A stretch of DNA of 37,303 bases from Akkermansiaceae bacterium. GTDB lineage: Bacteria > Verrucomicrobiota > Verrucomicrobiia > Verrucomicrobiales > Akkermansiaceae. The stretch is taken from assembly GCA_021200315.1 (NCBI GenBank), contig JAJQGU010000008.1:1-37303 (forward strand), read 5' to 3'. The position numbers and the translations under genes are program-made. Below, in pieces: positions 1 to 20,845 of the stretch. Position 1 is the first letter of the stretch, and each line of letters starts with the position of its first letter. A model generated the notes under the pieces. It was given only the letters and a program-made list of their open reading frames with translations, was not told where the DNA came from and did not search any database.

Positions 1-217
1 ACAATTAGCAAATTGATATAGTTCGAGGTCATTCGCTTGCTGCTTTGAACTCTTTCTTTTGCTTTCTTCGGGTACGCGGATAGAATGGCTGGCGTTACCG
101 AGAGGGTAACATTCACTTTGCCGTACACTTACCAAGAGCGTCTACGCTTACCGAAGAACGCCCATCGGATTCCTCCCTGATGAGCGTCGCTCAAATACTA
201 AAGGGCGTCTTTAGTGC
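1..217. other. Gene-free left edge downstream of brxL
   Basis: No supported gene is seen here. A minus-strand frame is open from about 140 to the window edge and lacks an ATG; it could be the start of another gene but nothing in it is recognisable. The stretch has several small inverted repeats: a 6-bp stem at 94-110 (GTTACC/GGTAAC), an 11-bp perfect palindrome at 182-192, and the hairpin listed separately at 197-215. Confidence 0.4.
197..215 (-). terminator. Hairpin directly after brxL stop
   Basis: A perfect 7-bp stem (ACTAAAG/CTTTAGT) with a 5-base loop begins two bases past the TAG stop of brxL, where an operon terminator would sit. The run after it on the minus strand is only weakly T-rich (ATTTGAG), so it is not a textbook intrinsic terminator. 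Confidence 0.35.
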
Positions 218-1648
218 CTATTTTATCCAAATATTCGGCATTGTTACCTTAAACTCGCGGTCTATTAGATTACATTGCTCTTTGATGATACCTCTTCTTC
301 TCTTCGCTGGCTCAAGGCAGTATGTGTTAAACTCTTCCTTGTCGACATCAGATAGCTTTTCCCAATGCGGGAACAGTAATTTCATGTATGCGACAGCTGT
401 GCGTTTCACAGCTGTGAAATCGCGAATATCAGCATTACTCTCGAATCCGATAAGTTGATCAAATAAGAGGTTATACGAGTTTTGTGTTCGTAACACATGC
501 AGGATTTCTGAGAAGTACTCTACATTGATTGTCCACCCATTGTACGTAATTCCTTTATGGACTCTCGGGATATGCCAGCCTTCGATGAAACAATGGAATC
601 GATCGAGTAGGGCTGATTCTCTAAATGCGTTAGGTAATGAGTCAAAATAACGATCACTCTTCGGTGTCCTATCCTCATTAAGAGGGATGTTTCCCATCAG
701 CATAAGACCACACTCAGATGAAAACTCATTGTTGTCGATTGTCGTTTTTCCAGATTCTAGGTATGATTTAAGTGCAGCCTGTATTTCAGCAGGCTCCTGA
801 AAAATAATGGTTTGAATTTCATCGAAAGCGGTGACATCGTGGTTCTTGATAATGCCGTTCTGTTGCTTGGTCTTATCGTAAAAAAGTTTTGCGCGTGTCA
901 CCTTGCCACCGCTAACAAGCCATCCGTATTTGGAAATATTACCAAAGACATAAGACTTGCCTGTGCCTTTAGGTGCTAATTCTATGGCATTTAAGCGAGG
1001 CTCTATGAAAATCAAAAGACGAGTCAAGATTTCAAGCCTTTGAGCAAGAGATTTGAAGCCATCAGTATCATACTCCATAGCAGAAAGTAAAAAATCAATC
1101 CACTCAAGTGTGGTAAAGGATTTTCTAGCCTCTTTGTAGTACTCGATATCAACTGTTTTATATGGCTTAAACGCCTTGTAGGCAATCATTTCGACGTGGT
1201 TGTCTTTGCCGCCGTCATTTGGCAGCACGGCAAGTTTAATAATTCCCCACTTCTCTCCGTCAACGAGTTCTCCTTTGTGCTTTTCGTATACATAGGGCGG
1301 GATTTGCCCCTCTTTAATTTTTATACCCATATCAGGTATCCCAAAGCGGCGGATATTTTTAACTAGGTCGATATAGACGACAAAGCGGCAAAGAAGTTGG
1401 ATTTCTTCTCCTGCTCCTAAGCGGTCTTTAACTTCTGATTGCTTTTGGGGGATAACAGTTCGTAAGAAGTGTAGAAGTTCGTCTTTACGGATACTGCCAT
1501 CAGGGTTGATATATCTGCGTATAATGAAGTCTTTAACAAAGGAGGGGAGATTACATCCCGCAAATAAGCCGTCAGCAGCATCGCGGTCTTTCAAAATCGC
1601 CATCGCAGAGAAAACTTCACGAATTTTTTGTGCTGTATTAGTGTTCAT
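218..1648 (-). CDS. brxL: BREX system protein BrxL, short form without Lon protease domain
   Basis: This is a 476-residue AAA+ protein and the last gene of the BREX operon. The Walker A motif is APKGTGKS near residue 228 and a Walker B-like AFDEIQ lies near residue 274. They are followed by MLMGNIPLN and a FRESALLDRFH stretch typical of the BrxL/Lon-related ATPase core. Type 1 BrxL proteins are about 680 residues and carry a C-terminal Lon-like domain; here the protein stops after the ATPase and a helical tail. Shorter relatives of about 450 residues are known in the family, so this may be natural rather than truncated. Its ATG lies 3 bp after the pglZ stop, so it is almost certainly cotranslated. 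In the family, BrxL is a DNA-binding hexameric ATPase needed for phage restriction; that role is inferred here. Base composition is AT-rich like the rest of the operon. Confidence 0.85.
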   Translation of the reverse strand: MNTNTAQKIREVFSAMAILKDRDAADGLFAGCNLPSFVKDFIIRRYINPDGSIRKDELLHFLRTVIPQKQSEVKDRLGAGEEIQLLCRFVVYIDLVKNIRRFGIPDMGIKIKEGQIPPYVYEKHKGELVDGEKWGIIKLAVLPNDGGKDNHVEMIAYKAFKPYKTVDIEYYKEARKSFTTLEWIDFLLSAMEYDTDGFKSLAQRLEILTRLLIFIEPRLNAIELAPKGTGKSYVFGNISKYGWLVSGGKVTRAKLFYDKTKQQNGIIKNHDVTAFDEIQTIIFQEPAEIQAALKSYLESGKTTIDNNEFSSECGLMLMGNIPLNEDRTPKSDRYFDSLPNAFRESALLDRFHCFIEGWHIPRVHKGITYNGWTINVEYFSEILHVLRTQNSYNLLFDQLIGFESNADIRDFTAVKRTAVAYMKLLFPHWEKLSDVDKEEFNTYCLEPAKRRRGIIKEQCNLIDREFKVTMPNIWIK

Positions 1649-1651
1649 ATC

Positions 1652-4072
1652 TTAATCAAATAAGTCGGTTTCTTCTTCTGCTCCTGTTTTTACGATCAAA
1701 GTATCAACTTGTTCAAAAGATGCTCCGATGCGCAAGATTACCTTTGTTTCCGTTTGCTGTATATTATCAACTTTAGGGCATTCAAAAGTAGATTCATCCA
1801 CCTTTTGCAGCGTATATTTCTTACAGTTGTATTCTATTTCTATTGTTGGATAAGCTGACGAGGTGATGCCTTTGATTTGATATTGTATATTTGATCTTAT
1901 TGGGGAGATTTTCTTTGTTAAGATTTTAGCATTGATACGAGGACTCACCTCCTTATCAGACACAATAATGATAGGGACTAATACCTCCTCAGGCGTTGCT
2001 CCGCCGTGAGCTCCTATGCCAAGAGCTGTCTTAGATGAAATGGAGTCGTGAGTGAGAGCGCAAGCCGTTAAGCCATCGCCAGTGGTGATCATATACACCT
2101 TGTCTTGTGTAAGTCTATCTATAATAATTTCTGCACAACGCCCCGCATGGTCACTCTTAATTCCCGCAAAGTTCAGCCCTTTGCCGTATTGAGCAAGATA
2201 AGTCAAACCGTGGTCTGAAATGAAAGCTATTTTTTTACCTTGATATTTTTTGAGTGCTTCTTCGACACAGTTTCGAACCAATTTGAACTCTTCGTCTATA
2301 TGAGTGGGGAAAGCTTTATTTTTATGGGCGTTAGCATCTAAGTCACCCATTTTTTTCAACTTATCTCCTGCTGCAAGTTCTTCAAGCTTTTTCTTGTTGT
2401 TCTCGGTGCGAGTGGGGAGTTCCGATGTCGCAATGTTTACCTCGTTTAAGTACATGCCGTAGAATCCCCCTTTTTCTTTAATGACTTGAATAATAAAAGG
2501 AATCCAGTCTACGCCGAGACCATCTATCCAAAGAAAAATATCTATATCAGATCTACCATGCAAGAGCGTTTTCGTTGTTTTGAAGTCATTATGCCAACGT
2601 TCAAATAACATTGCTGATGAGCTATGCTCTGAAAGCATCCGGCTAAGGTTTTCTGATATTGTTTGCGCCGTTTTAGATAATTTGTACTCTGAAAAGTAGC
2701 TGTTAAGCCATGTTTGGCCGGAAGGAACAGGCAGATTGTATTCTGAGGTGTAGTAGTGATAGAAATCAGGGAAAGCTTGCTCAACGTCTTCTCTGCGTAT
2801 TGCTCCTTTCCCGAACCAGTTAATGACCAAATGTCTCTCTTTGGGGGTGTATGCCGTGACGTATTGAAGAGCTGTCTGATAGCCCTGGTTGTCAGCTATT
2901 TCAATGAGTTTGTTTTGGAGGTGAGCAGTATCTTGTTCAGAAAGAGTTATGTCTTCTCTTAACGCTTCGTATGCGGTTTTGAGAAGTTGTCTTCTATCTG
3001 GTATAAAAACGGAATTTGCCGTATCTTCGAAGATATTGAGTTCAATGGCGGAGATTAAAGAATCGAAAGAAAGTGAAGAGCAGCTTTGGATTGCTCGACT
3101 AAAATAGGTGTCCTTTTTTTGGGGTATGAGGAGATAAAGCAATTTTAGAAGCCATCGGGAGTAGTCCGGCTTCGGACTCGGACATTTTAGCCAGTTTGCA
3201 AGTACGTCTGCCTCTAGATTAGAAAAATTAGAATTAAATGTATTGCGTAAAAAGGAAAGAGGATCAAAGTTGTTAGTAAAGTCTATTTCAGACGAAAAGG
3301 TATTCCAAAAGTCGTTATCGCATTTATGTGGTGGCATAATGCTTAAGTCTTTGTCAATCAACATTGATAGCAAAGATTTTATATCAGGGTAAAACTTGAC
3401 ATCTATCGCATTATCACTTGTTGGTAGTGAATTCTTCTTATAGATATCGGAAGCGGTTTTGGATGAAAGTATAATTTTGTGTTTAATCTTGTTATTCGGC
3501 TGCCAAAGATTGACCCAATCTTTAAGGCTTGAGCAAATGCTGTATTTGTTTGACAATCCATTTATATTATTTAGTTTAACGTCATCTGTAAGAATAAGAC
3601 TATAACAATTGCCAGCCTGATTGCAATTATCCCAAATAACGATGGCGGGGTCGTTTACAAAGTTATACATGCGACTCTGCTGTCCTATAAAGGGAAGGTA
3701 TACACGTTGTTGTTCGTCGCGACTCTCTATTCCTTTTATAGTTGTGATGAAACACTTGAACTCATTGTCATTATAAAATCTGGCAATCTCCGAAATAGGA
3801 AATACAACCAAATCATTTTTACCGGAAGAAATTTTTCCCTTTATCCAGTCACACAATGATTTCATTGTTAGCTGCTTATCGTCTGACAAAGCTTCAGCTA
3901 GGGGGCACATAAATGCACCATCTTTGGAACGGCGTGTTTGTATGAACGTATCAAAGTTTTTGTAATCATCGAATAGAACAAAACGACAAGGGAAACGATT
4001 GCCCCCACGCTTCTTGTCATCGTTTATAGCTGCTTCCAGGTCTTTAAGAGATTGATATGGAAAGACGCTCAT
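1652..4072 (-). CDS. pglZ: BREX alkaline-phosphatase-superfamily protein PglZ
   Basis: This is an 806-residue PglZ-family protein. Metal-site motifs of the alkaline phosphatase superfamily are visible in the C-terminal half: WIDGLGVDW near residue 518, ISDHGLTY near residue 620 with a second SDHAG further on, and GIGAHGGATPEE near residue 689. The N-terminal half is divergent and shows nothing I recognise. PglZ is the one protein shared by all BREX types; its biochemical role is not settled, though metal-dependent nuclease or phosphodiesterase activity has been proposed for the family. The start codon lies 29 bp inside the 3' end of brxC, and the stop is 3 bp from brxL, which indicates translational coupling through the whole operon. 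No frameshift or missing metal ligand is apparent. Confidence 0.92.
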   Translation of the reverse strand: MSVFPYQSLKDLEAAINDDKKRGGNRFPCRFVLFDDYKNFDTFIQTRRSKDGAFMCPLAEALSDDKQLTMKSLCDWIKGKISSGKNDLVVFPISEIARFYNDNEFKCFITTIKGIESRDEQQRVYLPFIGQQSRMYNFVNDPAIVIWDNCNQAGNCYSLILTDDVKLNNINGLSNKYSICSSLKDWVNLWQPNNKIKHKIILSSKTASDIYKKNSLPTSDNAIDVKFYPDIKSLLSMLIDKDLSIMPPHKCDNDFWNTFSSEIDFTNNFDPLSFLRNTFNSNFSNLEADVLANWLKCPSPKPDYSRWLLKLLYLLIPQKKDTYFSRAIQSCSSLSFDSLISAIELNIFEDTANSVFIPDRRQLLKTAYEALREDITLSEQDTAHLQNKLIEIADNQGYQTALQYVTAYTPKERHLVINWFGKGAIRREDVEQAFPDFYHYYTSEYNLPVPSGQTWLNSYFSEYKLSKTAQTISENLSRMLSEHSSSAMLFERWHNDFKTTKTLLHGRSDIDIFLWIDGLGVDWIPFIIQVIKEKGGFYGMYLNEVNIATSELPTRTENNKKKLEELAAGDKLKKMGDLDANAHKNKAFPTHIDEEFKLVRNCVEEALKKYQGKKIAFISDHGLTYLAQYGKGLNFAGIKSDHAGRCAEIIIDRLTQDKVYMITTGDGLTACALTHDSISSKTALGIGAHGGATPEEVLVPIIIVSDKEVSPRINAKILTKKISPIRSNIQYQIKGITSSAYPTIEIEYNCKKYTLQKVDESTFECPKVDNIQQTETKVILRIGASFEQVDTLIVKTGAEEETDLFD

Positions 4073-7000
4073 ATTCTTCTAGAAAGTTTATGATTTCATC
4101 TATAACGGAAGAAATCTGCTTTTCGCAAAGAACTTCTAGAAGTTTCTTTGCTTCATCTAGGGAATCTATGTTTTTAATCCTGGTTCTTGCCTTTTGAAGA
4201 GCCTCATCCGACGGCGGTTTAGGAGGATCAGGAGGAGTTGGCTTTGGTGGTGGCGGTGGTGGTGGAAAGGGTGGTTGAGTACTACTTATCCTCCACTCCA
4301 TAACAAGTTTAACCACTTCATCTTCTTTCCAAAGGCCGATAGTTGATGGCGAATGTTGAGTGATGTATTCCAACGCTTTGTCTACTTCTTCGCGGCCACT
4401 AATGTGCAGTTTTGGGTTTGACGTTAGAAAATTCCTTAAACCTTCTCCGAACGCCTCTTTACAATTGAGAATGTTTTGCATCTCAAACCTGTATGTGTTA
4501 ATGAGGGAAAGAGTCTTGTCGTAGAGAGAAGAATTGTCCGACTCACGCTCTCTGCAAATTGTAGAGATATTGTCTATAAGCGTCTTCATCTCGTCGTTCG
4601 GAGGGGTAAGACCGCAGAATACCCCTTTTGGAGTGTATTTTATTGCCCATAGAGGAGCCTTCACTTCGTCCGCAAATTGTACGGTAATAAGCCCCCTAGC
4701 TTTGGCTAAGCTTGCTGATTCTGTCAAGTCCTTATCTAGGCGATTTAAATTAAATAGGCAGACAAACTCTTTGCAGAGTTTTCCTTCTTCGGGCTTTTGA
4801 AATTTGACCTCCAATGCGCTGTTAGGCTTATTATTTTCCCACGCTTTAAACAAAGCGCTTATGCGGTTAGTTAAATCCAAAGATTTCAGAGGCTTTCCTT
4901 GCGTATCAAAGATTTTGCCAACACATGAACGACGGAGTGAGAAAGCAACCATTGCCATGCAAGCGAAATTCTCAAAAAGACCGTAAGGAGGCTTTGTTAA
5001 AACTTTAAACTTATCTGCAAAGTTGAACGGAACGCTTTTGTCCGCAGAAGCAATAATGCTAGCCACTTTATCATCGACTTGTTTGAGCGGATGGTCTGGT
5101 GCTACATTAGTCTTCCATTTCCATTTATCATCGAGTGCACCTTGAATCAAAAACTTTATCGGGCTCATTGGAGCGTTGAGGTTGTTGATGAAGTCGTCAG
5201 GAGAAGGTGCGTCTAGCATCCTCCTGACAATATTTTTGGAATTTTGTTTTTTCCAGAAAGTGCCATATTTTTGGGAATTTGCGAATGCGGGGTGAGCATC
5301 AGGTGCGTATGGATACAGGGCAGGCGTTATCTCAGAATTTACTTTTTGAGGCCATCCTGAAAATGTACATGAGAACTCCTTGATGCCCTTGATGTATACA
5401 GAAGCTGTACCTCGTAGCAGATCAGCTATCCATTCTCTTACCATGCCGCTCGCATTCTCCATATGCGTTTGGGCCTGTCCGGCTAATCCGTGATTTGACG
5501 CGCATTTGTAATTAGCTTGATATTCAATGAAACGCTCGTATTCTTTAACAGAGAAAGTCCTGTCAAAAACGATAAAAACGATTTGTTCCAATTCCTTATC
5601 AAACTCATCTTGCATACATTTCGCGGCGAATGCTTTCAATTCTTCACGTTCCTCATCGTCTTTTGAAAATAGGAAGGCAAAAAACAGCTCGTATGACTTT
5701 GCTGCTTTTCTCGCCTTTTTAATCTCCAGTAATGTTCTATTCTGAAGTCTTGAAAAACAGCCGTATTGATAGGGTCTGTTGATTAAATTGAGACTTTTTG
5801 CAAACGTGTCTTTCTTAGAGTCAATGAGCTTTACGATTTTGCAAGTGTGTTCAAATTCTTTTCGGAGGCTGTTTTTTAACTCTTCAATTTCATTAGTCGG
5901 GAGCGCTGAAAATTGTACCGAGAAGAGACCGCTTGGCGAGCGTTGAATTATCCCGTTTCCGTTAAACCACGTCAGGATGTCATCAATATGCGCCTCGTAG
6001 TCAGTGCCAATAAACAATCTTTTAATGTTTTCTTCTGATGGAGTTACAAGACCGTTATTATTTTCAGCAGATATATTGTTAAAAGCATTTAGGAGGAGAG
6101 TTGCTTTAAATACAGCTAGGTAAGAAGCTCCTTGATTTGCAACCTTTTGTTGATGAGAGTAGAAGCGTTCTGTGACCGCACCATAACTGGTGATGTCCCC
6201 CTGAAAAACCTTGAGTACATAATCCCACAAGTAGTCTGCTGTAATGGTGGCCTTTTTTGAGAATTGCTCCTTGTCGGATAAAAATGATTTAATATCGTCA
6301 TTTTGTCCCAAAAATTCAAAGACGCTGCGACTGGATGAGCCTACAACGGTAGCGTAATGTGCTGCAAGATTAGCCGTGCCTGGGTGTAGAGGGAAGAGAT
6401 TACGAATGTCTTCTTTCGTTGAGTTTTCATCGTTACTTGTTTGGGAGAAAATCTCCAATAATTCTGGATGATCCTTATAAAACGCTTCACTGAGGTCCTT
6501 GTGTTTATCTGCATTGCTTATACTGAACTTTCGGGACATAATTCGAAAAGCAGAAACCGGCTCCATGTTATACTGCATCTTATGGTATCTGCCATCGGTC
6601 TGTTTTTGCTGATCGTTATTCATGTGATCGAAGGCAGATGGATGCGATATTAAGAAGAGATACGAATTATTATTATCACCCTTGGCGAACTCTTCCGCTA
6701 TGGTTTGCAGTGCTTTTAGTGCGGGGGTGCCAATCGTGCTCATCACGTCGGTAAACTCATCCCATACAATCAAAAAGCCGTTATAGTCTCCCTCGGCGGC
6801 AAGAGCATTTTGCGCCTCAATCAGCCAAGAAGTGATATTGTTATTATTTAACCTAAAGCTCAAGGATTCATCACGCAGTGCGCTCGTAGCAGCATTGTAT
6901 GCCTTCGTATCATACCTCCTTAACATATCTACTAACTGATTACAGTCTGACACTATGTTGGACAAATCGTTGTTCCTTTTAATACGCAGAGACCACATTT

Positions 7001-7529
7001 CGTCGTGAGATTCGATGTTATCCGCATAATTATCAAATTCAGTATGGATACGTTCGGAGAAAGTGATCTGGTGCTTTTTCAACGTGTCTGCAACACTCCG
7101 TTGGATGACCAAAGCCAAATCGCTCTCTCTGGTCATGGATTCAAGCCCCTTGATGTTGACGGGAAGAAGGCGTTTGTTTTCGCGGAGTGTTAATATATCT
7201 TGCCTGTCTCGCCGTATTTCAGCCTTCTCACCTTGGTATTCGTTATTTACCCATTGCTCAATTTCCTCCTTTTTATCGCCGAGCAAGTGGCTGATGACGG
7301 CGGCAGCGTGACTCTTTCCCGTACCATAACTGCCGTATAGCCAAAATGATTTGTGGTTGTCGATGTCGTTAGCGCGAACGGATTTAATAACGATTCTTAA
7401 AATGTCGTTAAACTGTTTATTTGCAATAAATGAAGTCCATTCTTTAGCACTTGCTTTGTCTGTTATATCAAACACAGCTCTACAGGCTCGTATCTTTATA
7501 ATGTCTTCGTAACAGGTAGCCGTATCCAT
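4044..7529 (-). CDS. brxC: BREX ATPase BrxC (type 4 variant)
   Basis: This is a 1161-residue P-loop protein. Walker A is GSYGTGKSHAA (residues 66-76) and a Walker B-like segment FLIVWDEFTDVM lies about residues 247-258. The order and length fit the large BrxC/PglY ATPases that form the scaffold of BREX. Near the C-terminus, about residues 1090-1115, there is an unusual proline-rich stretch with a run of seven prolines. It links the body to a short helical tail of about 45 residues that ends inside the pglZ start region. The gene starts 37 bp after brxP stops, with no clear Shine-Dalgarno sequence before the ATG. Family knowledge says BrxC is essential for defence; DNA or nucleotide binding at the P-loop is inferred. 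The length and both ATP motifs suggest it is intact. Confidence 0.9.
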   Translation of the reverse strand: MDTATCYEDIIKIRACRAVFDITDKASAKEWTSFIANKQFNDILRIVIKSVRANDIDNHKSFWLYGSYGTGKSHAAAVISHLLGDKKEEIEQWVNNEYQGEKAEIRRDRQDILTLRENKRLLPVNIKGLESMTRESDLALVIQRSVADTLKKHQITFSERIHTEFDNYADNIESHDEMWSLRIKRNNDLSNIVSDCNQLVDMLRRYDTKAYNAATSALRDESLSFRLNNNNITSWLIEAQNALAAEGDYNGFLIVWDEFTDVMSTIGTPALKALQTIAEEFAKGDNNNSYLFLISHPSAFDHMNNDQQKQTDGRYHKMQYNMEPVSAFRIMSRKFSISNADKHKDLSEAFYKDHPELLEIFSQTSNDENSTKEDIRNLFPLHPGTANLAAHYATVVGSSSRSVFEFLGQNDDIKSFLSDKEQFSKKATITADYLWDYVLKVFQGDITSYGAVTERFYSHQQKVANQGASYLAVFKATLLLNAFNNISAENNNGLVTPSEENIKRLFIGTDYEAHIDDILTWFNGNGIIQRSPSGLFSVQFSALPTNEIEELKNSLRKEFEHTCKIVKLIDSKKDTFAKSLNLINRPYQYGCFSRLQNRTLLEIKKARKAAKSYELFFAFLFSKDDEEREELKAFAAKCMQDEFDKELEQIVFIVFDRTFSVKEYERFIEYQANYKCASNHGLAGQAQTHMENASGMVREWIADLLRGTASVYIKGIKEFSCTFSGWPQKVNSEITPALYPYAPDAHPAFANSQKYGTFWKKQNSKNIVRRMLDAPSPDDFINNLNAPMSPIKFLIQGALDDKWKWKTNVAPDHPLKQVDDKVASIIASADKSVPFNFADKFKVLTKPPYGLFENFACMAMVAFSLRRSCVGKIFDTQGKPLKSLDLTNRISALFKAWENNKPNSALEVKFQKPEEGKLCKEFVCLFNLNRLDKDLTESASLAKARGLITVQFADEVKAPLWAIKYTPKGVFCGLTPPNDEMKTLIDNISTICRERESDNSSLYDKTLSLINTYRFEMQNILNCKEAFGEGLRNFLTSNPKLHISGREEVDKALEYITQHSPSTIGLWKEDEVVKLVMEWRISSTQPPFPPPPPPPKPTPPDPPKPPSDEALQKARTRIKNIDSLDEAKKLLEVLCEKQISSVIDEIINFLEEYERLSISIS

Positions 7530-7566
7530 GATGTTGGCAGATGAGATATGAAATGAAAAGTTGAGT

Positions 7567-10092
7567 TTAATAGTTGAGCAGTGATTTCAGAGCACTTGAC
7601 GCGGTGTAGTTATCAGAAAGTGTGATATGGTTGAGCCCCATGTTTAGCGCAGCGGTAAGGACTCTGTTTTTTGTGCTCGATAGGTACCTTAATGCGCGGG
7701 AGAGGTCATTTTGCGAAGTTCCAAATTCGCGGTATGGCCCGCATTCAGCGGCTTCGCCATATAGGTCAGAAAGTTGAAACATGCTGCTCTTGTTTTCTTG
7801 ACCATATTTAAAGAGAGAATAAGCAACTGCTTCTGGAGAGAGTTTTGCGTATGCGCTTCTTGAAATTTGCTCTCTATCTGCGCAACATTGGTTAAAATCG
7901 ACTCCTATTGGAGAGTATTTAAATGTTTGGATTAAGGCTTGAACAGCGTATTTAATAGTAGTGTCTTTGAAGAAGTATGCAAGGAAGTATTCGAGTGCAA
8001 GTTGATCGAGGTTCTTGCGCGTTATATTAAATCCAACATTGATGGTATTTACATACCATTTCATTAGGGGGCTGTTATGCACTAGGTTGATATGGATAAG
8101 CTCCCACAGAAGCTTTTGACCCTTTTGGCCATTTTGGCTAATTTGGCTGCAGAGTTTACCAAACTCGGTCAACAAACCTTTATCGCCTATGATTTCAGCG
8201 TCTTTGAGCCAAGCCTTAAAGCTGGGGAGTTGTTTCACTCCAAGGCTATTTTCTTCCCAATAGCCTTCTGTATCAGCAAAGAATTCGTCAAGCCATGCTG
8301 CATGTAGACCAAAGGTGCCGTATTTCGATATTTTCATATTAGCAGAGGTGTTAGCGGTGGGTTTAATCAAAGAGTCAGCGACAATGCATCCAACATTATG
8401 GTATTCGAGACACCTATGACAATGTATGCACCTCGATTTGTCTATCTTGACTTCAGGGTAGACAGACAATGCACCGGTTGGGCATTCTAATTCACAGGCT
8501 TCGCAGTTTATGCAGTACGTAACTTTATTGACGGTTTTTCTGAGAAGCGTTCTTAACTGGACGTTGTTATTATCCTGAACAATAAAGGTAAAATCGCTTT
8601 GCGAGGTTCCGTAAGAAATTTCGTAGTTGTAGACATTTTTGTTGAAGAGTAAATCACCAACAAAACCATCAGAGGTTTCTTGTCTACTGTATGCACATAA
8701 AGCAGGTAGCCAGTCAAAAATATCTTTCTGTGCGCCCTTAACTTCGGCAACCCACTCTATGGGTGAGGTTTCTATTCTGAGAGTTGTAGGGTTTTGTGAA
8801 AACTTACCGCTGCTCCGAAGTTTCCATTTTCTCTCGGTTATGTACTCGTGTTTGTTCGGAATATTTCGCTGCTCGGTAATTGCTTCGATTCTGGATAAGA
8901 AGGGTTTTAATTCATTCGGGTAGCAGGTGTTCACAATCATATCATCCCATGGAGAGCCGAATGGACATAAAATACACCCAACGCGAGGCTTACCAACTCT
9001 ATACGCAGCATTGACAGGTAGGTTATGCCTAAATAGGTAAAGAAATACCTCAGTGGTGTTCCAGCGAAGTATTGGTCGAGCGTTTATCACAAAATTGTGT
9101 TTCACTCCTTTCCCAATTCGCGCATATTCGCTTCTTTTATTAGACTCTTCTGCTCTAACACCTTCAAATGCGAGAAACTTCGGATTTTTCTTTTTTATTC
9201 CCGAGCGGAGAAGTCGATAAAGAGGGGAGGTTTTCATCACGGAACAACACCATCTATGGCTGTCGCTGGGAGTTCCGATTTTATCCCAATAGTTAAGTAC
9301 AGATTCGTGATTTTTTGCTGTGAGAAAATTCAGCATGGGAAACCGCGTATGATATAAAGCTTGCGTCTCTTCGTATAGCTGAAGAGACGCGGGTAATTCA
9401 TATCCAGTATCGCTGTATATCACTTCAAAGCTGTTTGGCGGAATTGCTCGTGTGCATAAATCCAAAACAACTTGGGAATCTTTGCCGCCAGAAAATGAAG
9501 CGATGAACTTGTCAATTTTGCTGGAAAGGATTATCTTTTTGCCTGTATATTTAGCTTTGTCCAGAGGAACAATATCAAAACTGTCGCAATTTTCCTGAAC
9601 CAATGCCATTTTCTGTTTTGATTGCTTTTCTACCTTGCAAATCAACGACTCAAAGTCAATCTTGTTTGATTCAGACTTGTTGTATGCCTTATTTACACGA
9701 ACGTAGAAAATGTACGTGTCTCGAATGAACTCTATAGCTTCATATTCAAGCATAAACATTATATCCTCGTTTCGCCTGAGCATTGCTGTCATATCAACAG
9801 GTATAAGCTTGATGGAGCTGTTAGTATCCGCTGTGAACTTTATTGCAGGCTTTGTGTAAATGTCCGCCCCTTTGACGGTAAACATTAACTGCCCACGATA
9901 ATAGTATTGCTTATTGACAGCCCACATGAGTGGCTCGGGGCATTGGGGGTACTCCCAACCAAATCGGGGAAGTTCTAACAAATCCAATTCCTCAAAAAAG
10001 ACAGGGCGTGGTGCTATACCGACAGTCTGCGAAGAGTTGTGCGTTGTCAGCAAAACGCCGCCAGTTTCTGTGTCCCATTCTATTTTGTACAA
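7567..10092 (-). CDS. brxP: BREX type 4 PAPS reductase/ferredoxin-like protein BrxP
   Basis: This 841-residue protein marks the operon as type 4. An N-terminal region of about 190 residues is followed by a PAPS-reductase/N-type ATP-pyrophosphatase domain: the PP-loop SGGKDS at 201-206, SDTGYE near 227, HRWCC at 279-283, EGVRAEES near 310, and GCILCP at 372-377. A two-cluster 4Fe-4S ferredoxin module follows (CINCEACELECP at 527-538; CIHCHRCLEYHNVGC at 555-569), then about 270 residues with no recognised domain. It resembles the ATP- and cysteine-dependent sulfur-transfer enzymes that include DndC. The start codon is TTG: the conserved family start MYKIEWD begins there, an in-frame stop lies about 30 bp upstream, and no ATG intervenes. 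It is the first gene of the operon. A role in DNA or nucleotide sulfur chemistry is inference. Confidence 0.93.
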   Translation of the reverse strand: MYKIEWDTETGGVLLTTHNSSQTVGIAPRPVFFEELDLLELPRFGWEYPQCPEPLMWAVNKQYYYRGQLMFTVKGADIYTKPAIKFTADTNSSIKLIPVDMTAMLRRNEDIMFMLEYEAIEFIRDTYIFYVRVNKAYNKSESNKIDFESLICKVEKQSKQKMALVQENCDSFDIVPLDKAKYTGKKIILSSKIDKFIASFSGGKDSQVVLDLCTRAIPPNSFEVIYSDTGYELPASLQLYEETQALYHTRFPMLNFLTAKNHESVLNYWDKIGTPSDSHRWCCSVMKTSPLYRLLRSGIKKKNPKFLAFEGVRAEESNKRSEYARIGKGVKHNFVINARPILRWNTTEVFLYLFRHNLPVNAAYRVGKPRVGCILCPFGSPWDDMIVNTCYPNELKPFLSRIEAITEQRNIPNKHEYITERKWKLRSSGKFSQNPTTLRIETSPIEWVAEVKGAQKDIFDWLPALCAYSRQETSDGFVGDLLFNKNVYNYEISYGTSQSDFTFIVQDNNNVQLRTLLRKTVNKVTYCINCEACELECPTGALSVYPEVKIDKSRCIHCHRCLEYHNVGCIVADSLIKPTANTSANMKISKYGTFGLHAAWLDEFFADTEGYWEENSLGVKQLPSFKAWLKDAEIIGDKGLLTEFGKLCSQISQNGQKGQKLLWELIHINLVHNSPLMKWYVNTINVGFNITRKNLDQLALEYFLAYFFKDTTIKYAVQALIQTFKYSPIGVDFNQCCADREQISRSAYAKLSPEAVAYSLFKYGQENKSSMFQLSDLYGEAAECGPYREFGTSQNDLSRALRYLSSTKNRVLTAALNMGLNHITLSDNYTASSALKSLLNY

Positions 10093-10106
10093 TTTGTGAC
10101 TATAAT

Positions 10107-10112
10107 ATTATA
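10107..10112 (-). promoter_or_regulatory. Candidate -10 box of the BREX operon
   Basis: A consensus TATAAT lies on the minus strand 14 bases before the TTG start of brxP. I find no convincing -35 hexamer 16-18 bases upstream. If used, the transcript would have a leader of under ten bases. Confidence 0.35.
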
Positions 10113-10191
10113 CTGATTGCGCCCATCCGAGAGGGAAGAGAGGACGGGGCAGCCAGGCAAGGTCATCCGCACCCTCAAATGAACAGGAAAA

Positions 10192-10398
10192 GCATAGCGG
10201 ATTTTGAATCCGCCATGCAGAAATACCCTCTGAAATTCGCATCTAATCCACTCTGAACACAATGTTTCTTTCCCAAAATACATAACGCCATTATATAAAT
10301 TCAGGCCGAATTTCCGGAAACGAAATCGAAGAGCAAGCAGTTTTTTCTCAATAAAAATCGAACTTTCTGGTTGACAGCGGATTCAAAATCCGCTATGC
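10192..10398 (+). repeat. 207-bp palindrome-ended dispersed repeat, copy 1
   Basis: The element begins with a near-perfect palindrome (arms GCATAGCGGATT and AATCCGCCATGC) and ends with the matching arm TTGACAGCGGATT...AATCCGCTATGC, so the ends are inverted repeats of each other. The centre holds a third hairpin, AAATTC-AGGCC-GAATTT. A second copy of exactly the same length lies inverted at 20639-20845, with roughly three-quarters identity by eye. There is no ORF inside, and no target-site duplication is evident. It reads as a MITE- or REP-like non-autonomous element. It sits between the BREX promoter region and the macrodomain gene. Confidence 0.8.
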
Positions 10399-10581
10399 AT
10401 CGGTCTTCCTCTTAGCCCGCGAAATGGCCCCAGCAAATTGAATCTGAGCCTTTTTCATCCAAATCGAAACTTTTGCATAGACTCTTGAACTGAAATTTGT
10501 TAAAAACCCTTGCTTCACTATGAGGTAAGAAATATCCTCCTTTATAGATGTTCCCATAATTCCTCCAACAAAATTAACACT
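10399..10581. other. Non-coding DNA between the repeat and the macrodomain gene
   Basis: No gene is seen. Positions 10421-10446 resemble an internal segment of the 207-bp repeat next to its first palindrome (compare GAAATGGCCCC with GAAACGGCCCC in copy 2), so part of this stretch may be a decayed third copy. No clear promoter or Shine-Dalgarno sequence precedes the gene at 10582. Confidence 0.35.
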
Positions 10582-11091
10582 ATGCCATTACACATTATCC
10601 AAAACGACATTACCAAGATGGAGGTGGATGCTATTGTCAATGCAGCCAATACTGCCCTGCTGGGTGGAGGTGGCGTGGATGCCTGCATTCACAGCGCTGC
10701 GGGGGCATCTCTTTACGAGGAATGCAAAACCCTTGGCGGATGCGAAGTAGGGAGCGCCAAAATGACTGGTGCTGGCAATTTGCCATGCAAATACGTCATC
10801 CATGCCGTGGGCCCGCGCTACCGCGATGGGAAACACGGAGAGGCCGCAACACTCGCCTCCTGTTACAGCACTTCACTTCGACTCGCAGCTGAGGCAAAGT
10901 GCCAAACCATCGCCTTCCCTCTAATTTCTTGTGGTATCTATGGCTACCCCCTCAAAGAGGGCATACAAATCGCATGCGACACCATCAACGACTTTCTACG
11001 CGAGCACGATTTGACTGTCTACCTAGTCATCTTTGATAGCAAAACGGTGCAATTTTGCAAAGAGCGGGAGCTCCTGCCAAAATTCTGCTGA
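10582..11091 (+). CDS. Macrodomain protein, probable O-acetyl-ADP-ribose deacetylase
   Basis: This is a 169-residue single-domain macrodomain protein. The family signature is clear: an N-terminal strand and QNDIT, VDAIVNAAN (catalytic/substrate Asn), LLGGGGVDACIHSAAG (ribose-binding loop), then TGAGNLPCKYVIHAVGP, IAFPLISCGIYGYP (phosphate loop) and VIFDSKTVQFC near the end. This is the YmdB/MacroD subclass, which hydrolyses O-acetyl-ADP-ribose or removes ADP-ribose from proteins. I chose the ATG at 10582 because the conserved domain starts right after it; an upstream TTG at 10510 would add 24 unrelated residues. The gene stands alone between the 207-bp repeat and an ankyrin remnant. A link to phage defence or toxin reversal is possible from its position but not shown. 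Confidence 0.9.
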   Translation: MPLHIIQNDITKMEVDAIVNAANTALLGGGGVDACIHSAAGASLYEECKTLGGCEVGSAKMTGAGNLPCKYVIHAVGPRYRDGKHGEAATLASCYSTSLRLAAEAKCQTIAFPLISCGIYGYPLKEGIQIACDTINDFLREHDLTVYLVIFDSKTVQFCKERELLPKFC

Positions 11092-11115
11092 TCCATTCTT
11101 GAACAGTACGAAGCA

Positions 11116-11406
11116 TCACGCAACGCACGTTTCCTCCATCCGTCTAAGCTGCCTGACGAGATTAGGAACTGAATAACGCGGATAGATGATGGTGAGCGTG
11201 TGAGGTTCCTCTCCCTCAGCTACCATCCACAATTCACCCATACCTGAGGCAGCGAGTCTACCAAGCATGCATTTCAAAACCTCCGCATTTCCCCAATCTG
11301 CCACCAAATCGAGCGGCGAACATGGACTCCCATCTACGGGCACATCCGCACCATGTGCGAGCAACATCTTCACAATCCCCCGATTTAGCAACGAATTCAC
11401 CCCCAA
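11116..11406 (-). pseudogene. Ankyrin-repeat protein remnant
   Basis: About 96 residues are readable. The segment GIVKMLLAHGADVPVDG followed by SPLDLVADWGNAEVLKCML fits one to one and a half ankyrin repeats. It ends in a non-repeat tail with a normal TGA stop. The frame is open a further 20 codons upstream, up to a TGA, but has no ATG; only TTG or GTG could start it. A repeat protein this short without a start is most likely the 3' remnant of a larger gene. It is convergent with the macrodomain gene and leaves a 24-bp gap. Confidence 0.55.
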
Positions 11407-12048
11407 AAACCGATTTTCAAGAATTATTTTTGTCCTTTTTTCATTCTCACAAAATCATCTCTAGCAATCGTTTACAACTTCACTCTCTTCCATACCCCTC
11501 ACCTTTCGCGTTTATCGACTTCTTCCTCATTTTGAGTATATGGGTTCTCTTGACTCGAGAAACAACTTTCTTCGCTCTATACAGCTCTTTATCAACGCTT
11601 TCAAAAACCGATTCTTCCGAGTCCTTTGGAGTCCTTTTCTCTCCCAAAACGCTCCACAAAGCGAAATTTCGCAAAAACTCCGAAAAATGTCGTTATGAGT
11701 CGGAAGGAATTCTTATTCTCTCAACTCTTTTATTTTAGTTCGATTACAAAAATATCGCACAGTCCCAGATTTTGAAATCTTGAAGGATGCGCGATAAATC
11801 GGAAACTAGTGTCTATCTGCGTTAGAATACTTTAGAGGATTATTTATAATACTTTACAGAGATTCGTCCTTTTTGAGGTCCTCCATTTTGGCAGAAATTT
11901 GACTCATAAAGCGGTTCTAACGCGAAAAAGGCTTATTCTTGTGTCATATAAATCCCGTGTATTCGTTTTGCGAGGTCACGAAATCCCTCTTTTTGGGAAA
12001 ATGAGAGGCTTCTGTTATGAGTCGGGAGTATATGAGATCACAGCTTCT
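11407..12048. other. AT-rich gene-free stretch with a short repeated motif
   Basis: No supported gene lies in these 640 bases; the frames that stay open have no recognisable protein content. The 12-mer GTTATGAGTCGG occurs at 11692-11703 and again at 12014-12025, and the inverted 9-mer GACTCATAA lies at 11901-11909. Their role is unknown. Confidence 0.4.
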
Positions 12049-13557
12049 TCATTTCTTACCCTTCTCATCTTTTGCTGCTTGTTTCTCTTCCTTCTCATGG
12101 CGATTGATGCCCTCGATGAGGAGCTTGTCGAGTTCCTGAGCGAGGGGCAGAACGTTGTAGTGAGGGTCATCAGCGATGAAGTAGGCGGCAGTATTGCCAC
12201 GCATGAAGTAGATAGCGGATTTCTCGCTCCCCTCAGCGATGGAGCCATCGGAAGCTAAGCGTGGCACGGTGCAGATGTCCCAATCCCCAACCAAGCGCGG
12301 GTTGATTTGCATGAGGTTTTTTATATCTGATTTTTCCATCTTCTTCACCTTGGCATCGACAACAATTCGTCTCCTCACTCCAGTTTCATTCTCATACAAT
12401 TGAAATCCAAGCAAAGCGTAGCGTGCATCAGTCGGGTTGAAAGCGTGATAAATGCAATAGCGCAAGAGCACATTTTTGTCCTTCATCCGTGCCCAGAGGC
12501 AATACTTGCCTCCTCGTTGTTCAATCATCGTCATTCCTCTCGTTAAAAGAGACTGCACAAAATCACGGCAGCCCACCCCCGTGTTCACATTGGGAATGAT
12601 GTTCTTTTCTTCCAAAGGATTGAGCCCCAATTCTTCGGCAACACCGTTGACCTGATCCGCCCAGAACAGGTCAGCACTTTCATCCCATTCCTTGTTCTTA
12701 TATCGCTTCCACGCATTTTCGGCGAAGCAGGGTGTGTTGCCCCTAGTATTCCTATCCCAACGCACATGATGCTTCTCGCGTATGGCATCATCTTCTTCAT
12801 AGAACTTCTTAGCTTTTTCTATATCCTTGGGTCGCCTTTCTTTATTATGCACGATTGTTAATATTTCGTGGCAGATTTGCTTCATTTCATCTACAGTTGG
12901 CTCTTCTGCAATGTATGGAAGAGCTCTATCGGGAGGCACGGGGTGAGACACATGATTCACATATCTCTCACCATAAGATTTCACTTGTAATTCATAACGA
13001 TACTCATAATATCTCACTAGTTCCCTTTCGCTTTTGACCTCATCGCCCTTATACTGACTCCAGCGATTTTTTAGTCGTTCTACATAGAAAATATTATCTT
13101 CTTTTACTAACCAATCTGCGTCGCTAAACTTTAATCTCTCAGGATTCATGGGCCTAAAACAGCCTTCCTCCAATCGCTCCACCAATGGTATAGGAGGCGT
13201 TTCCTCCTTCCATCTCCATATTTCGATTTCAAAGGCTCGATGCCCTTGCATATCAAACGCGGCATTTTTATAAAATATATATCTACCTATCGTCACGCCA
13301 GACAAAAGAGAATCAGCATCTTCTGCTTGACAGTTGATATTATAGACTTCAGTCAATTTCGCATATTCTTCTTCGCTCACACCTACAAATTGAAGAAGAT
13401 TCTTTTTGAAAGACGGGGGTGGTGGCTCTATGTATAAATTATTTGTTACAAGTCGAAATTCATCGCGCTCGGTAGTTGCTTCAGCCAAACATAAGTTTGC
13501 AATAGTTAGAGCAACCATCAGGGAACAGCATATTTTAATGAGCTTCTTTTTCATCAT
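12049..13557 (-). CDS. Secreted protein of unknown function (502 aa)
   Basis: I do not recognise this family. The N-terminus is a good Sec signal peptide: MMKKKLIKICC, then a hydrophobic core with a probable cut after LCLA near residue 25. The rest is soluble, rich in charged and aromatic residues, and ends in a lysine/glutamate-rich tail. Cysteines are scattered (for example GVGCRDFVQSLLTRG and RYCIYHAFN in the C-terminal half). It is the last gene of a three-gene operon, 25 bp after the 841-residue gene. The tight layout suggests the three products act together at the cell surface or in the periplasm, but no function can be assigned. Two ATGs are adjacent; the first is listed. Confidence 0.75.
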   Translation of the reverse strand: MMKKKLIKICCSLMVALTIANLCLAEATTERDEFRLVTNNLYIEPPPPSFKKNLLQFVGVSEEEYAKLTEVYNINCQAEDADSLLSGVTIGRYIFYKNAAFDMQGHRAFEIEIWRWKEETPPIPLVERLEEGCFRPMNPERLKFSDADWLVKEDNIFYVERLKNRWSQYKGDEVKSERELVRYYEYRYELQVKSYGERYVNHVSHPVPPDRALPYIAEEPTVDEMKQICHEILTIVHNKERRPKDIEKAKKFYEEDDAIREKHHVRWDRNTRGNTPCFAENAWKRYKNKEWDESADLFWADQVNGVAEELGLNPLEEKNIIPNVNTGVGCRDFVQSLLTRGMTMIEQRGGKYCLWARMKDKNVLLRYCIYHAFNPTDARYALLGFQLYENETGVRRRIVVDAKVKKMEKSDIKNLMQINPRLVGDWDICTVPRLASDGSIAEGSEKSAIYFMRGNTAAYFIADDPHYNVLPLAQELDKLLIEGINRHEKEEKQAAKDEKGKK

Positions 13558-13582
13558 GGCTTTAGTTTGTATCGTTTTGAGA

Positions 13583-16108
13583 CTATTTCTGCGTACTTGC
13601 TTTTTCTTTAGGTGTAAAGCTTTCGAGTTTTATCATGCAGGGCAATATTCCATTACCAGTATAAGAGGAACCAAAATCAGATCTTGGATCTATCCATCTT
13701 TTCCTCGTCGAATTATATAGAGGTGGAGTGGAATCGTAAATAGTAGATTTGTAAACGTTAAACACATGATTAGGAGCCTTGGCTATACAAAGTGTTTTAT
13801 CTTTTTCAATCCCACAGATTCTTGGAAGAACCGCAGACAAACACGCCACGTCTGCGCATATTACTTTAGGATCATTGTCACCTCGCTTAGTTTGATTACT
13901 AGCAGACTTTGTTTCAAAGCCAGTCAAGTGAAGAACCATTCTTTCTATATCCAAAACAAACTCTTTACCTGAAAGTGGAATTGGCATATCTGAGATTGGC
14001 AGAGAATAGGTTTTATCCCTCTGAAGGCTATAAAATGAACCCAAATATGATTTCCCTTTATGCAATACGTTATCCAAATTATTCCATTTCAAAACGGGAT
14101 GATACGTAGTAAGAGAATAAAGAGCAGTAGAAATTGCTTCTTGTATGGCGGATTTTTGGGGGTTATTATTTGCATACACTTCTTTGCACATCGCTTTTAG
14201 AGCATCTTCCCATACTAGCACAGGATGTTCATCAACCGCGCCCTCAATATTCACAGATCCATCGATTAACCCATCTTTTCGCCACGTAGAATCATCAAAA
14301 ATTAAATACACATCTTTAAGCGTAGTATATGCATAATCTGTTGGATTTTCCTCTATTACCTCGTTACCATGTTTATCGTGCTTAAGCCTATGCAAAGACC
14401 ACTTGTTGCGCATTTTGCAGTAACGAATTTTATCGGGTAAACTATTTTCCATCTGCATATCCACCTCATAAATATCATACAGCGAAGTATGGCCTGATAT
14501 CTTTATTCCACTTGCTAACTTTATTGCACGTTCTTTCTTTGTTTTACTTTCTTCCTGTTTCCTCTCGATTTGATTCAAGTTATCAGCCAAATTTTCCTTG
14601 GTATATTCATAATATGTACCAGTGTCTAATACCTCACTTCGTCCCAAAGCATCTTTTTCTGCCTTTAGCGACCACGAATCTCCCAAGTCCTGTCTCACTG
14701 CAACAAGAACCCTAAAGGTAACTCCAGACGCTCTGGTTTTCAGCGCAATGGGTGATTGCTCGGGTTTTCGACAAAATCCTTGAATCTTATTGCATCCATC
14801 TGTCCACTTGTAGTGCCATTGGTTATCCTCTCCTGACACTATTGTGTAATAAGTTGGTTCTTCTTTTTCACTACCTCTCTGTCCTTGTCTATGCTTGATG
14901 TTGCTGAACTCTGCGCGAATAACACGATTCTGTAAATCTTGTGCATGCGTTTGATCAGTTGGCTGAAATTGCTGCGTAACGGTTATACCATCAGGAGTGG
15001 CTGCATCTTGGGGGCCATCTTTCCAATCACTCGTAATTGCAAGAATATAAAATTCCTTATTTTGCTTGACTTCGGCAAGGACGACAGCCTTAAGCAAAGT
15101 TCCTTTATCCTGTTCTTCTACGATTGCCCAATACTTATCGTTAAGATGATTTTGAGCCGTTTTTGTCAACCTCACTTTCGCAGAAAAGGGCAACAAGTGG
15201 AAGGATGGAGGTGCTACTTTTTTCTTCGATTTATTCGAAATTTTAAAAAATGAATCTTTCAAACGTGAACTGCTGTGCAAATATAAGAAACCGTCATATT
15301 GATTCTTGCTCTCATTGATTGCTTTTTGAAATTCTTTTCCCCAATTTAAATCATTTTTCTTCCTACTCTCTTTGGCAATTTTTATGCCCTTATTTCTAAG
15401 CTTATCAAACATTTCCCATTCTAATGGCCAGAATTCACCCAACTCCGCCTCAATAGAATTTAATTTTTGAGGGAGTTTTTTATCTACCCATGTACTTATG
15501 ACTTGATATTCCTCCTCACCATATTTTCTATCTAACATAGCTACCCATGGGCACTTTGAAAAATCCTTTACTGGCGGCTTCTCTAAGATTTGTTGGTAAA
15601 TTTCAGGTTGGACATTTCCGTATGGATGAAATTTCTTCCACTTGGTAAAGTCAATATGAGCTAAGGCCCGAACTCTCCCCTTTATTTTCAAACCTGCGTG
15701 AGATATAGCATAAAATGATGAAGAAGGTCTGCACCAAAACGTTGGGTTCCCTTTATAAGCAGAGAAATAATCTAGGCATCCCCAAACGCACTCCCAGTGG
15801 ATTTGCGCATTTTCTTCCTTATACTTCACTCGATACGGGTGAACGATTTTGATTTGCGCGCCGAGTAAATCTGGCACCTTACCATTCTCCACTTGTGGTG
15901 CGTAAAAAAGCTGCGCTCCATCTAAGCCCGCTGGATTATCTACATAATCACTTGACTGTACCTCATCTAACAGATGCGGCGTAAGTGAAACAAAATGAGA
16001 TTCTATATCCGCATTCGCTCCCTGACTTGCTGAGCCAGCACTCTGCCCCCACGCGATGCCTAGCAGGGAGAGCATCGTGCACCATCTTATCTTTTTTTCT
16101 ATGTTCAT
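13583..16108 (-). CDS. Secreted protein with a possible transglutaminase-like C-terminal domain (841 aa)
   Basis: A signal peptide is present (MNIEKKIRWC, hydrophobic core to GIAWGQSAG, cut about residue 24). No family is recognisable over the first 640 residues, which contain several W/C-rich segments. In the last 120 residues the order of motifs fits a transglutaminase-like cysteine-protease fold: VICADVACLSAVLPRICGI (Cys751), then NHVFNVYK (His781), then RWIDPRSDF (Asp807). This matches the general C...H...D layout with CxDxA and a W-x-D-P tail. The match is by eye and the domain call is an inference. The ATG lies 1 bp after the stop of the beta-propeller gene, so the two are cotranslated. 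Base composition is AT-rich, unlike the central region. Confidence 0.7.
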   Translation of the reverse strand: MNIEKKIRWCTMLSLLGIAWGQSAGSASQGANADIESHFVSLTPHLLDEVQSSDYVDNPAGLDGAQLFYAPQVENGKVPDLLGAQIKIVHPYRVKYKEENAQIHWECVWGCLDYFSAYKGNPTFWCRPSSSFYAISHAGLKIKGRVRALAHIDFTKWKKFHPYGNVQPEIYQQILEKPPVKDFSKCPWVAMLDRKYGEEEYQVISTWVDKKLPQKLNSIEAELGEFWPLEWEMFDKLRNKGIKIAKESRKKNDLNWGKEFQKAINESKNQYDGFLYLHSSSRLKDSFFKISNKSKKKVAPPSFHLLPFSAKVRLTKTAQNHLNDKYWAIVEEQDKGTLLKAVVLAEVKQNKEFYILAITSDWKDGPQDAATPDGITVTQQFQPTDQTHAQDLQNRVIRAEFSNIKHRQGQRGSEKEEPTYYTIVSGEDNQWHYKWTDGCNKIQGFCRKPEQSPIALKTRASGVTFRVLVAVRQDLGDSWSLKAEKDALGRSEVLDTGTYYEYTKENLADNLNQIERKQEESKTKKERAIKLASGIKISGHTSLYDIYEVDMQMENSLPDKIRYCKMRNKWSLHRLKHDKHGNEVIEENPTDYAYTTLKDVYLIFDDSTWRKDGLIDGSVNIEGAVDEHPVLVWEDALKAMCKEVYANNNPQKSAIQEAISTALYSLTTYHPVLKWNNLDNVLHKGKSYLGSFYSLQRDKTYSLPISDMPIPLSGKEFVLDIERMVLHLTGFETKSASNQTKRGDNDPKVICADVACLSAVLPRICGIEKDKTLCIAKAPNHVFNVYKSTIYDSTPPLYNSTRKRWIDPRSDFGSSYTGNGILPCMIKLESFTPKEKASTQK

Positions 16109-19755: not shown

Positions 19756-20349
19756 TCAGCCGAGCATGCGCAGGGCGGAGCGGATGAGCTTGTCCGTGTC
19801 GGACTGGGGGTCTTCGCGCAGGAGAGAGGCAATGGCTTTCCTCGCCTCGATCTGTTTGAAGCCCAGCGCAATGAGGGCGAGTTCGGCGTCGCCGGCAGCC
19901 TGCGGGGTGGTGCCTTCGGCCTGGGCCTCCCACGTGGCGGCCAGCCCCACTTTATCCTTAAGTTCGAGGATGATGCGCTCAGCCGTCTTTCTGCCCACCC
20001 CTTTGGCGCGGGCGATGGTGGCGGCGTCCCCGGCCACCACGGCCGCCTTAAAGGCCGCCACCGTCAGGCCGCTGAGGATGCTGACCGCCGTGGAGGGGCC
20101 GATGCCCGACACCCGGCCGATCAGCAAGAGAAAAATATCGCGCTCCGCATCGCTGGCGAAGCCGTAGAGCGTTTGAGCCGTCTCTCGGATCTGCAAATGC
20201 GTCCTCAAGGTCACTTCCTTGCCCACGGTCGGGTTGAGCGTGTCAAACGTCGACAGGGGCACCTGCACTTCGTACCCAACGCCGTGCACATCCAACACCA
20301 ACCTATGGGGGTAAGCTTCAGCCACGATGCCGCGCAAGAAAGAAATCAT
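19756..20349 (-). CDS. ruvA: Holliday junction branch migration protein RuvA
   Basis: This 197-residue protein is full length for RuvA, the tetrameric DNA-binding subunit of RuvAB that holds four-way junctions for branch migration. The N-terminal OB domain begins MISFLRGIVAEAYPHRLVLDV with GVGYEV. The two helix-hairpin-helix motifs are visible as RVSGIGPSTAVSILSG and AKGVGRKTAERIILELKDK, and domain III ends the protein (ALIALGFKQIEARKAI). The ATG is preceded by AGAGG at short spacing. ruvB and ruvC are not next to it in this window. High GC content and a housekeeping role mark the start of the core region. Confidence 0.97.
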   Translation of the reverse strand: MISFLRGIVAEAYPHRLVLDVHGVGYEVQVPLSTFDTLNPTVGKEVTLRTHLQIRETAQTLYGFASDAERDIFLLLIGRVSGIGPSTAVSILSGLTVAAFKAAVVAGDAATIARAKGVGRKTAERIILELKDKVGLAATWEAQAEGTTPQAAGDAELALIALGFKQIEARKAIASLLREDPQSDTDKLIRSALRMLG

Positions 20350-20417
20350 CGCCCTCTATCATGCACGGGTGAGCACTCCGAGGCAAGAGAAGATCGCGTC
20401 ACGCCCCCCCCCCGAAA

Positions 20418-20638
20418 GTGCGGAGCGAATTCATTACGCGCCTCATCCACGCCGCCGTTTCCCAATCGCTCCCGATAGCAGCCGGGGTTCGACGCCGCGG
20501 CAACTTTCATTTTCTTCACAGGGAACTGGGCTCCATCAACAAACTGCGAATCGACCCCGACTCCGTCGGGACGCCGTTCTGCTACCCGTTCCGCACCAAC
20601 CCCGCCGAACTGCGGGGCGCGAGCGGAGATGAGGCAAT
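20418..20638 (+). pseudogene. Fragment of a DegT/DnrJ/EryC1-type aminotransferase
   Basis: About 73 readable residues resemble a C-terminal part of DegT-family sugar aminotransferases: RSEFITRLI, then RRRGNFHFLHRELGSIN, and IDPDSVGTPFCYPFRTNPAELRGA. In that family the last part precedes the conserved segment ending in a W-P motif, which is absent here because the 207-bp repeat begins at 20639. No upstream part exists: a run of ten Cs (20404-20413) and then ruvA come first. So this is a both-ends-truncated fragment. Such enzymes act in surface-polysaccharide synthesis, which fits the flavoenzyme remnant that follows. Confidence 0.5.
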
Positions 20639-20845
20639 GCACGGCGGATTTTGAATCCACTGTCAACTCCGGAAATCGCTTTCCCTTGAAGAAAAGTTGC
20701 TTGAGTTCCGTTTTCGTTTTTGGAAATTCGGGCTGAATTTATATGAGGGCGTTATGCATTTTGATCGTGTAATGTTGCATTCAGAGTGAATTAGATTCAA
20801 ATTTCAGGGGCCGTTTCTGCATAGCGGATTCAAAATCCGCTATGC
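20639..20845 (-). repeat. 207-bp palindrome-ended dispersed repeat, copy 2
   Basis: This copy is inverted relative to the one at 10192-10398 and has the same length. Its right end is a perfect palindrome (arms GCATAGCGGATT and AATCCGCTATGC); its left end is a degraded version (GCACGGCGGATT). The internal hairpin AAATTC-AGCCC-GAATTT keeps both arms while its loop differs from copy 1. Insertion separates the DegT fragment from the flavoenzyme fragment. Confidence 0.8.

Follow-up and report, generated by a model that had tools for sequence, protein, structure and literature searches.

The 207-bp element that occurs twice in a 37,303-nucleotide stretch of an Akkermansiaceae bacterium genome (GCA_021200315.1, contig JAJQGU010000008.1, positions 1 to 37,303; the whole stretch is called the window below) is, in our view with little room for doubt, an inverton of the Akkermansia type, an invertible promoter switch present here in about 40 copies on one recombination address. 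Most likely it is not a jumping element but a switch in front of surface-protein genes and, in the window, of a phage-defence operon. The case is carried by the copies themselves, by their matched centres, by flipped and reassorted copies and by a bias in the position of a promoter-like hexamer. That the switch works is a claim we make from these patterns together with what has been published on how this repeat behaves in A. muciniphila.

Both window copies are 207 bp long, mutually inverted and 78-79% identical, and both ends of the element consist of a 22-bp inverted repeat, palindromic in its own right around GCGGATT-TTG/CAA-AATCCGC. An earlier note on this DNA had described two copies of equal length in opposite orientation with palindromic inverted ends, and both copies bear this out. 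Their parts are:

10192-10398, plus strand: 207-bp inverton copy 1 (the invertible segment with its two inverted repeats)
10192-10213, plus strand: gene-side (5') inverted repeat of copy 1, recombination core CGGATTTTGAATCCG at 10198-10212
10377-10398, plus strand: far-side (3') inverted repeat of copy 1, recombination core CGGATTCAAAATCCG at 10378-10392
10275-10301, plus strand: conserved internal AT-rich block of copy 1, AAAATACATAA-n-TATATAAATT
20639-20845, minus strand: 207-bp inverton copy 2, cores at 20645-20659 (one mismatch) and 20825-20839

The element family that the note had proposed is also real, and it is dispersed and multi-copy. A BLAST search of the genome with the element gave 61 rows, end-to-end self matches among them, corresponding to 40 copies on many contigs, 35 of which are essentially full length (204-208 bp). 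This copy number is far above chance, and exact GCGGATTNNNAATCCGC palindromes occur 82 times genome-wide while a reversed control pattern does not occur at all. In a 35-row alignment, which omits five copies cut by contig ends to 58-146 nt, mean major-base frequency reaches 0.99-1.0 in the palindromes and in a TTGACA box that lies just inside one end of 35/35 copies, against 0.85 in the body. An AT-rich block, AAAATACATAAcgncntTATATAAATT, is also conserved in the middle of the element. Across the 35 copies the conservation of this block (AAAATACATAA....ATATAAATT) is well above that of the remaining body, and 1 of 40 relatives' invertons has a counterpart. The earlier note had seen here a central hairpin with kept arms; the block stands but the pairing does not, as at least 8 of the 35 rows read TCAT in place of TTAT and lose one pair, so that the data show conserved sequence rather than conserved pairing. 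The search of relatives that the note had proposed found no full-length element in 58 relatives, four of which match about 30 bp at one end only, and viral contigs gave 0 matches to the element. The element core resembles the anticodon arm of tRNA-Leu(CAA); tRNA-derived ends were considered and rejected, since an ARAGORN search at the matches in the four relatives gave no tRNA.

The core at both ends, CGGATTNNNAATCCG, matches the inverted-repeat motif CGGATT..AATCCG given for Akkermansia invertons, after Jiang et al. 2019, in the excerpts of PMC13343947 used here, which also report flipping measured at this motif in A. muciniphila; excerpts of PMC11892184 describe recovery of the same inverton group (group 138) in that species. 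G004 and G017, two complete genomes from the same genus, together contain 121 exact sites (56 and 65), and we examined the three nucleotides at the centre of every one. Neighbouring sites 100-600 bp apart form 41 pairs, and in 40 of these the 3-nt centres are reverse-complementary, with 20 centre classes represented; the single unmatched pair is in G017 (137146/137384). Permuting the labels gave a mean of 1.5 matched pairs and a maximum of 9 in 10,000 shuffles. Given this pattern, the 3-nt centre behaves like a recombination address. In the genome of the window the 88 exact core sites are dominated by one such address, CAA/TTG (78/88), whereas the commonest class in G004 accounts for 8/56 sites. 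In nearly all copies one end has the centre CAA and the opposite end TTG, in matching inverted orientation, so that recombination would flip the roughly 180 bp between the cores. Outside the genus, 16 CGGATTNRNAATCCG palindromes were observed in G042, which belongs to another family of the same order.

Copies that differ in orientation between otherwise shared flanks provide further evidence. We clustered the outward flanks of the copies, designated here by contig and position, by similarity, comparing paralogous loci of one assembly. C30:5045 (+) and C3:35 (-) have both flanks in common (249 nt at 96% and 32 nt at 100%) yet carry the element in opposite orientations; in C21:4778 (+) and C37:42736 (-) one and the same flank adjoins opposite ends of the element (232 nt at 90%); and C69:30 and C10:18460 have the family's common far-side flank on their 5' end instead. 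In flipped copies the outermost repeat bases travel with the flank and not with the body, which places the breakpoint inside the palindrome. Further, leaders and far flanks combine variously, C68:16372 having the leader of C53:14178 and the far flank of C53:9268.

The earlier note had read the element as a mobile one of the miniature inverted-repeat transposable element (MITE) or repetitive extragenic palindromic (REP) kind. A MITE or other non-autonomous transposon, its palindromic terminal repeats being transposase sites and its spread due to transposition, would account for a short, non-coding element with 22-bp terminal inverted repeats and dispersed copies of constant length, and MITE and REP elements are likewise short and dispersed with palindromic ends. 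Yet the target duplications that the note had suggested looking for are absent: among the 32 of 40 copies covered, none has a direct match of at least 3 bp. No transposon with the element's ends was met either among exact ends genome-wide, where non-copy sites were read locally and no search was aimed at transposases. On the 5' side of many copies a start codon follows at a distance of about 25-125 bp, neighbouring leader DNA moves along with the element, the ends are the Akkermansia inverton repeat with centres paired across the genus, the body is flipped in several copies, and the association is with a recombinase rather than a transposase. We consider transposition of this kind very improbable as an account of the element; the reading in the earlier note is partly supported. 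The family has dispersed in some way, along with leaders or genes, and transposition as a route remains a candidate only.

A second alternative is that the palindromes are static, as protein-binding operators or REP-like RNA hairpins, spread only by gene duplication and carrying old flips with no present recombination. It would fit palindromes conserved far above the body (0.99 versus 0.85), whole gene-plus-element units duplicated over about 1.27 kb (C69:25181, C60:9528 and C31:1369), and the fact that flipping in this genome is deduced from paralogues. But it leaves unexplained why centres are reverse-complementary within pairs and of 20 kinds between them, it sits poorly with flipped copies that keep the same flanks, and it runs against the flipping that has been measured in A. 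muciniphila for this motif (PMC13343947, in excerpt). We therefore give it hardly any weight and retain the invertible switch, whose DNA is probably still flipping.

The promoter of this switch appears to be split between the invertible body and the flank. A TANNNT hexamer lies 17 bp from the TTGACA position on 28/33 gene (5') sides but only 4/39 far (3') sides, and C69:30, C10:18460 and C37:42736, which are flipped, have their TA hexamer beside TTGACA. In the 40 invertons of G004 and G017, TANNNT is found at the 17-bp spacing in 12/80 ends compared with 1-3/80 at spacings of 16 and 18-22. A promoter contained entirely in the body is conceivable, but a scan of the region gave no hexamer pair there. 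The gene-side repeat also looks like a terminator: in window copy 1 its 12-bp stem with T-rich tail scores -18.5 kcal/mol, which no shuffle equalled. Across copies, at least four T occur in the first eight bases of 24/33 gene sides versus 1/38 far sides, and an extended stem of at least five further pairs is present at 16/31 5' ends versus 0/31 TTGACA ends in the 207-bp family. In copy 1 these candidate features are:

10371-10376, plus strand: TTGACA, candidate -35 box on the invertible body, present in all 35 aligned copies
10191-10196, minus strand: TATGCT, candidate -10 hexamer in the gene-side flank, which would lie 17 bp from TTGACA after inversion, towards brxP
10394-10399, plus strand: TATGCA, candidate weak -10 hexamer on the far side, 17 bp from TTGACA as assembled, towards the macro-domain gene
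10182-10218, minus strand: putative terminator-like 12-bp hairpin (10192-10218) with T-rich tail, on the gene side in the assembled, apparently OFF, orientation

We propose that a tyrosine recombinase recognises both palindromic ends (CGGATT-NNN-AATCCG) and that TTGACA rides on the body, with the palindrome as a 17-bp spacer and a -10 hexamer (TATGCT or TAGGCT) waiting in the flank of the gene. In the ON orientation TTGACA would meet the flank hexamer, building a promoter across the recombination site. In the OFF orientation it would face away, and the gene-side palindrome would fold into a 12-bp hairpin with T's behind it, which may block read-through. On this view the majority of copies were assembled OFF and a few ON, and the window switch would face its bacteriophage exclusion (BREX) type 4 operon in the OFF state. 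A working promoter and a terminator role are thus predicted from sequence.

As candidates for the enzyme, the genome has seven tyrosine-recombinase and six serine-recombinase matches. A tyrosine recombinase would suit the odd, asymmetric 3-nt centre better than a serine one; serine recombinases were rejected as the invertase, none of their six loci holding a core site in the stretch examined. Four of the tyrosine recombinases are paralogues, three being 41-45% identical to P0001 (C48:9409-10440), which has three CGA-centred sites 17-204 bp upstream. At the same locus (L186) a CGA-centred inverton with three sites was observed between the tyrosine recombinase and an autotransporter-like gene, so that the recombinase may itself be phase variable. 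All 36 same-genus relatives searched contain the P0001 family, with 2-22 matches each, and only weak matches occur outside the genus. We searched recombinase loci L114-L173 (60 of 63, excluding the distant L174-L176) for site pairs, allowing up to two mismatches per site and three per pair. For 51 of these loci 350 bp or more of upstream DNA was available, and in 26 of the 51 a pair with matched centres lies 8-41 bp upstream of the recombinase match; no matched pair occurs elsewhere in 277 kb and none is expected from shuffled loci. It is likely that this Akkermansia tyrosine-recombinase family with a pair directly upstream is the invertase, its activity being predicted from sequence context. 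Any one of the four paralogues may be the enzyme that acts on the CAA copies. Up to 22 family matches were seen in one genome, and many matches were seen in genomes nearly free of the CGGATT motif; site families besides CGGATT may exist for these recombinases. Two metagenome-assembled contigs labelled Lachnospiraceae and Bacilli (L167 and L172) carry an Akkermansia-type recombinase, and the labels are probably binning errors.

Several results weigh against a working switch of this design. The flips compare paralogous loci, so inversion of the genome's own copies is deduced from them rather than seen. Two copies, C69:30 (L064, C69:30-228) and C33:34 (L177, C33:34-226), have their centres in direct orientation and should therefore be excised, not inverted; we cannot explain them beyond misaligned exchange. 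The -10 hexamers are weak (mean 3.3/6 matches to TATAAT), a standard promoter scan did not report the candidate split site, and the Fisher value for the hexamer side bias, 8e-11, treats related rows as independent. A clear TTGACA-like box marks one end of only 29/40 relatives' invertons; among these 29, TANNNT falls on the same side in 3 and on the other side in 8. The extended terminator-like stem is found at 1/29 comparable ends in relatives' invertons, which makes it a trait of the 207-bp family at most; a terminator role as a genus-wide rule was rejected for the same reason. Finally, no upstream pair is present at 25 of the 51 recombinase loci, which are also partly redundant (L115 and L144 hold the same pair).

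Compared with relatives' invertons, which use many centres, the genome of the window has amplified one body to about 40 copies with one centre. We tentatively suggest, at somewhat less than an even chance, that the 3-nt centre is an address that prevents recombination between different switches, and that here the code has collapsed to one address for about 40 promoter cassettes, so that the recombinase could flip each of them and also exchange promoters and neighbours between surface-protein, capsule, restriction and BREX loci. On the same tentative reading the recombination site would double as promoter spacer and terminator stem, and each flip would thereby swap a terminator for a promoter at a gene boundary. 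It is also conceivable, though we think it unlikely, that the sites serve chiefly for exchange between loci, as an integron-like shuffling of cassettes in which the promoter role is secondary. The single centre common to 78 of the 88 sites, same-strand copies 0.8-1.2 kb apart, and the same leader occurring with different far flanks and the converse (as in the C68 and C53 copies above) all speak for this, but the duplicated units are not bounded by palindrome cores: their homology extends 5-118 bp beyond the element, so they can equally be put down to homologous recombination. Neither a circle nor an empty site was seen, and integron-integrase models give best scores of 19.9-26.6 bits against a cut-off of 265 for three of the recombinase paralogues, the fourth not being listed.

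Our preferred reading, an amplified set of invertible promoter switches, has parallels. Multiple promoter inversions in Bacteroides fragilis, a case that PMC13343947 cites, are driven by a global invertase; there too a single genome holds numerous invertible promoters of much the same length that are acted on in trans, but the repeat motif and recombinase are others and the promoters lie wholly inside the segment. The fimS and Hin systems also place a promoter on an invertible segment, and Hin adjoins its site, but they are single-locus switches, Hin is a serine recombinase and the site does not split the promoter. A phase-variable capsule has been published for Akkermansia, a major commensal of the gut. 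The matched 3-nt centre provides a sequence rule predicting which inverton ends recombine, the promoter geometry would let ON and OFF be read from any assembly, and, in the BREX type 4 operon, an anti-phage system seems to have been placed under the control of a phase switch. The A. muciniphila invertons described in excerpts of PMC13343947 and PMC11892184 have the same core, belong to the same genus and lie upstream of surface or capsule genes, and a promoter motif is mentioned for this inverton group; the split -35/-10, the address rule and the gene-side hairpin are not described in these excerpts. Nor do they name a recombinase for the CGGATT..AATCCG motif, for which we offer a candidate family.

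The genes beside the copies are in keeping with surface and defence functions. Of the 28 copies whose 5' flank extends for 750 bp or more, 12 have a gene for a PEP-CTERM secreted protein on the 5' side, a count made by eye that includes three flipped copies with the gene on the other side. A glycosyltransferase gene adjoins the C10 copy, and the C37 neighbour, without a Pfam match, we take to be a polysaccharide-flippase-like gene. Behind the C30 copy (L069, C30:1-10000), after a short reading frame, come a C5 cytosine methylase, a FokI/AlwI-like nuclease and Vsr, so that defence genes recur behind the switch. In the window, copy 1 faces brxP, brxC, pglZ and brxL together in one operon, which by the type rule is BREX type 4; the earlier note had rightly placed one copy beside a defence operon. 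The surrounding features are:

218-1648, minus strand: brxL
1652-4072, minus strand: pglZ
4044-7529, minus strand: brxC
7567-10092, minus strand: brxP (BREX type 4, PAPS-reductase domain), the first gene facing the inverton
10093-10191, minus strand: brxP leader, homologous together with the inverton to the C26 (90%/313 bp) and C31 (87%/310 bp) copies
10582-11091, plus strand: macro-domain protein gene on the far side of copy 1

The C26 copy of the shared leader precedes a PEP-CTERM gene, and the homology of the brxP leader to the C26 and C31 copies ends 3-9 bp before the brxP start codon, suggesting that the BREX operon acquired a promoter cassette from a surface-protein gene, in a region of low G+C content (about 41%, against 60-65% farther right). 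The G+C content of the window is about 41% over the BREX and neighbouring genes (1-16000) versus 58-65% at 20000-36000, as expected of an acquired island.
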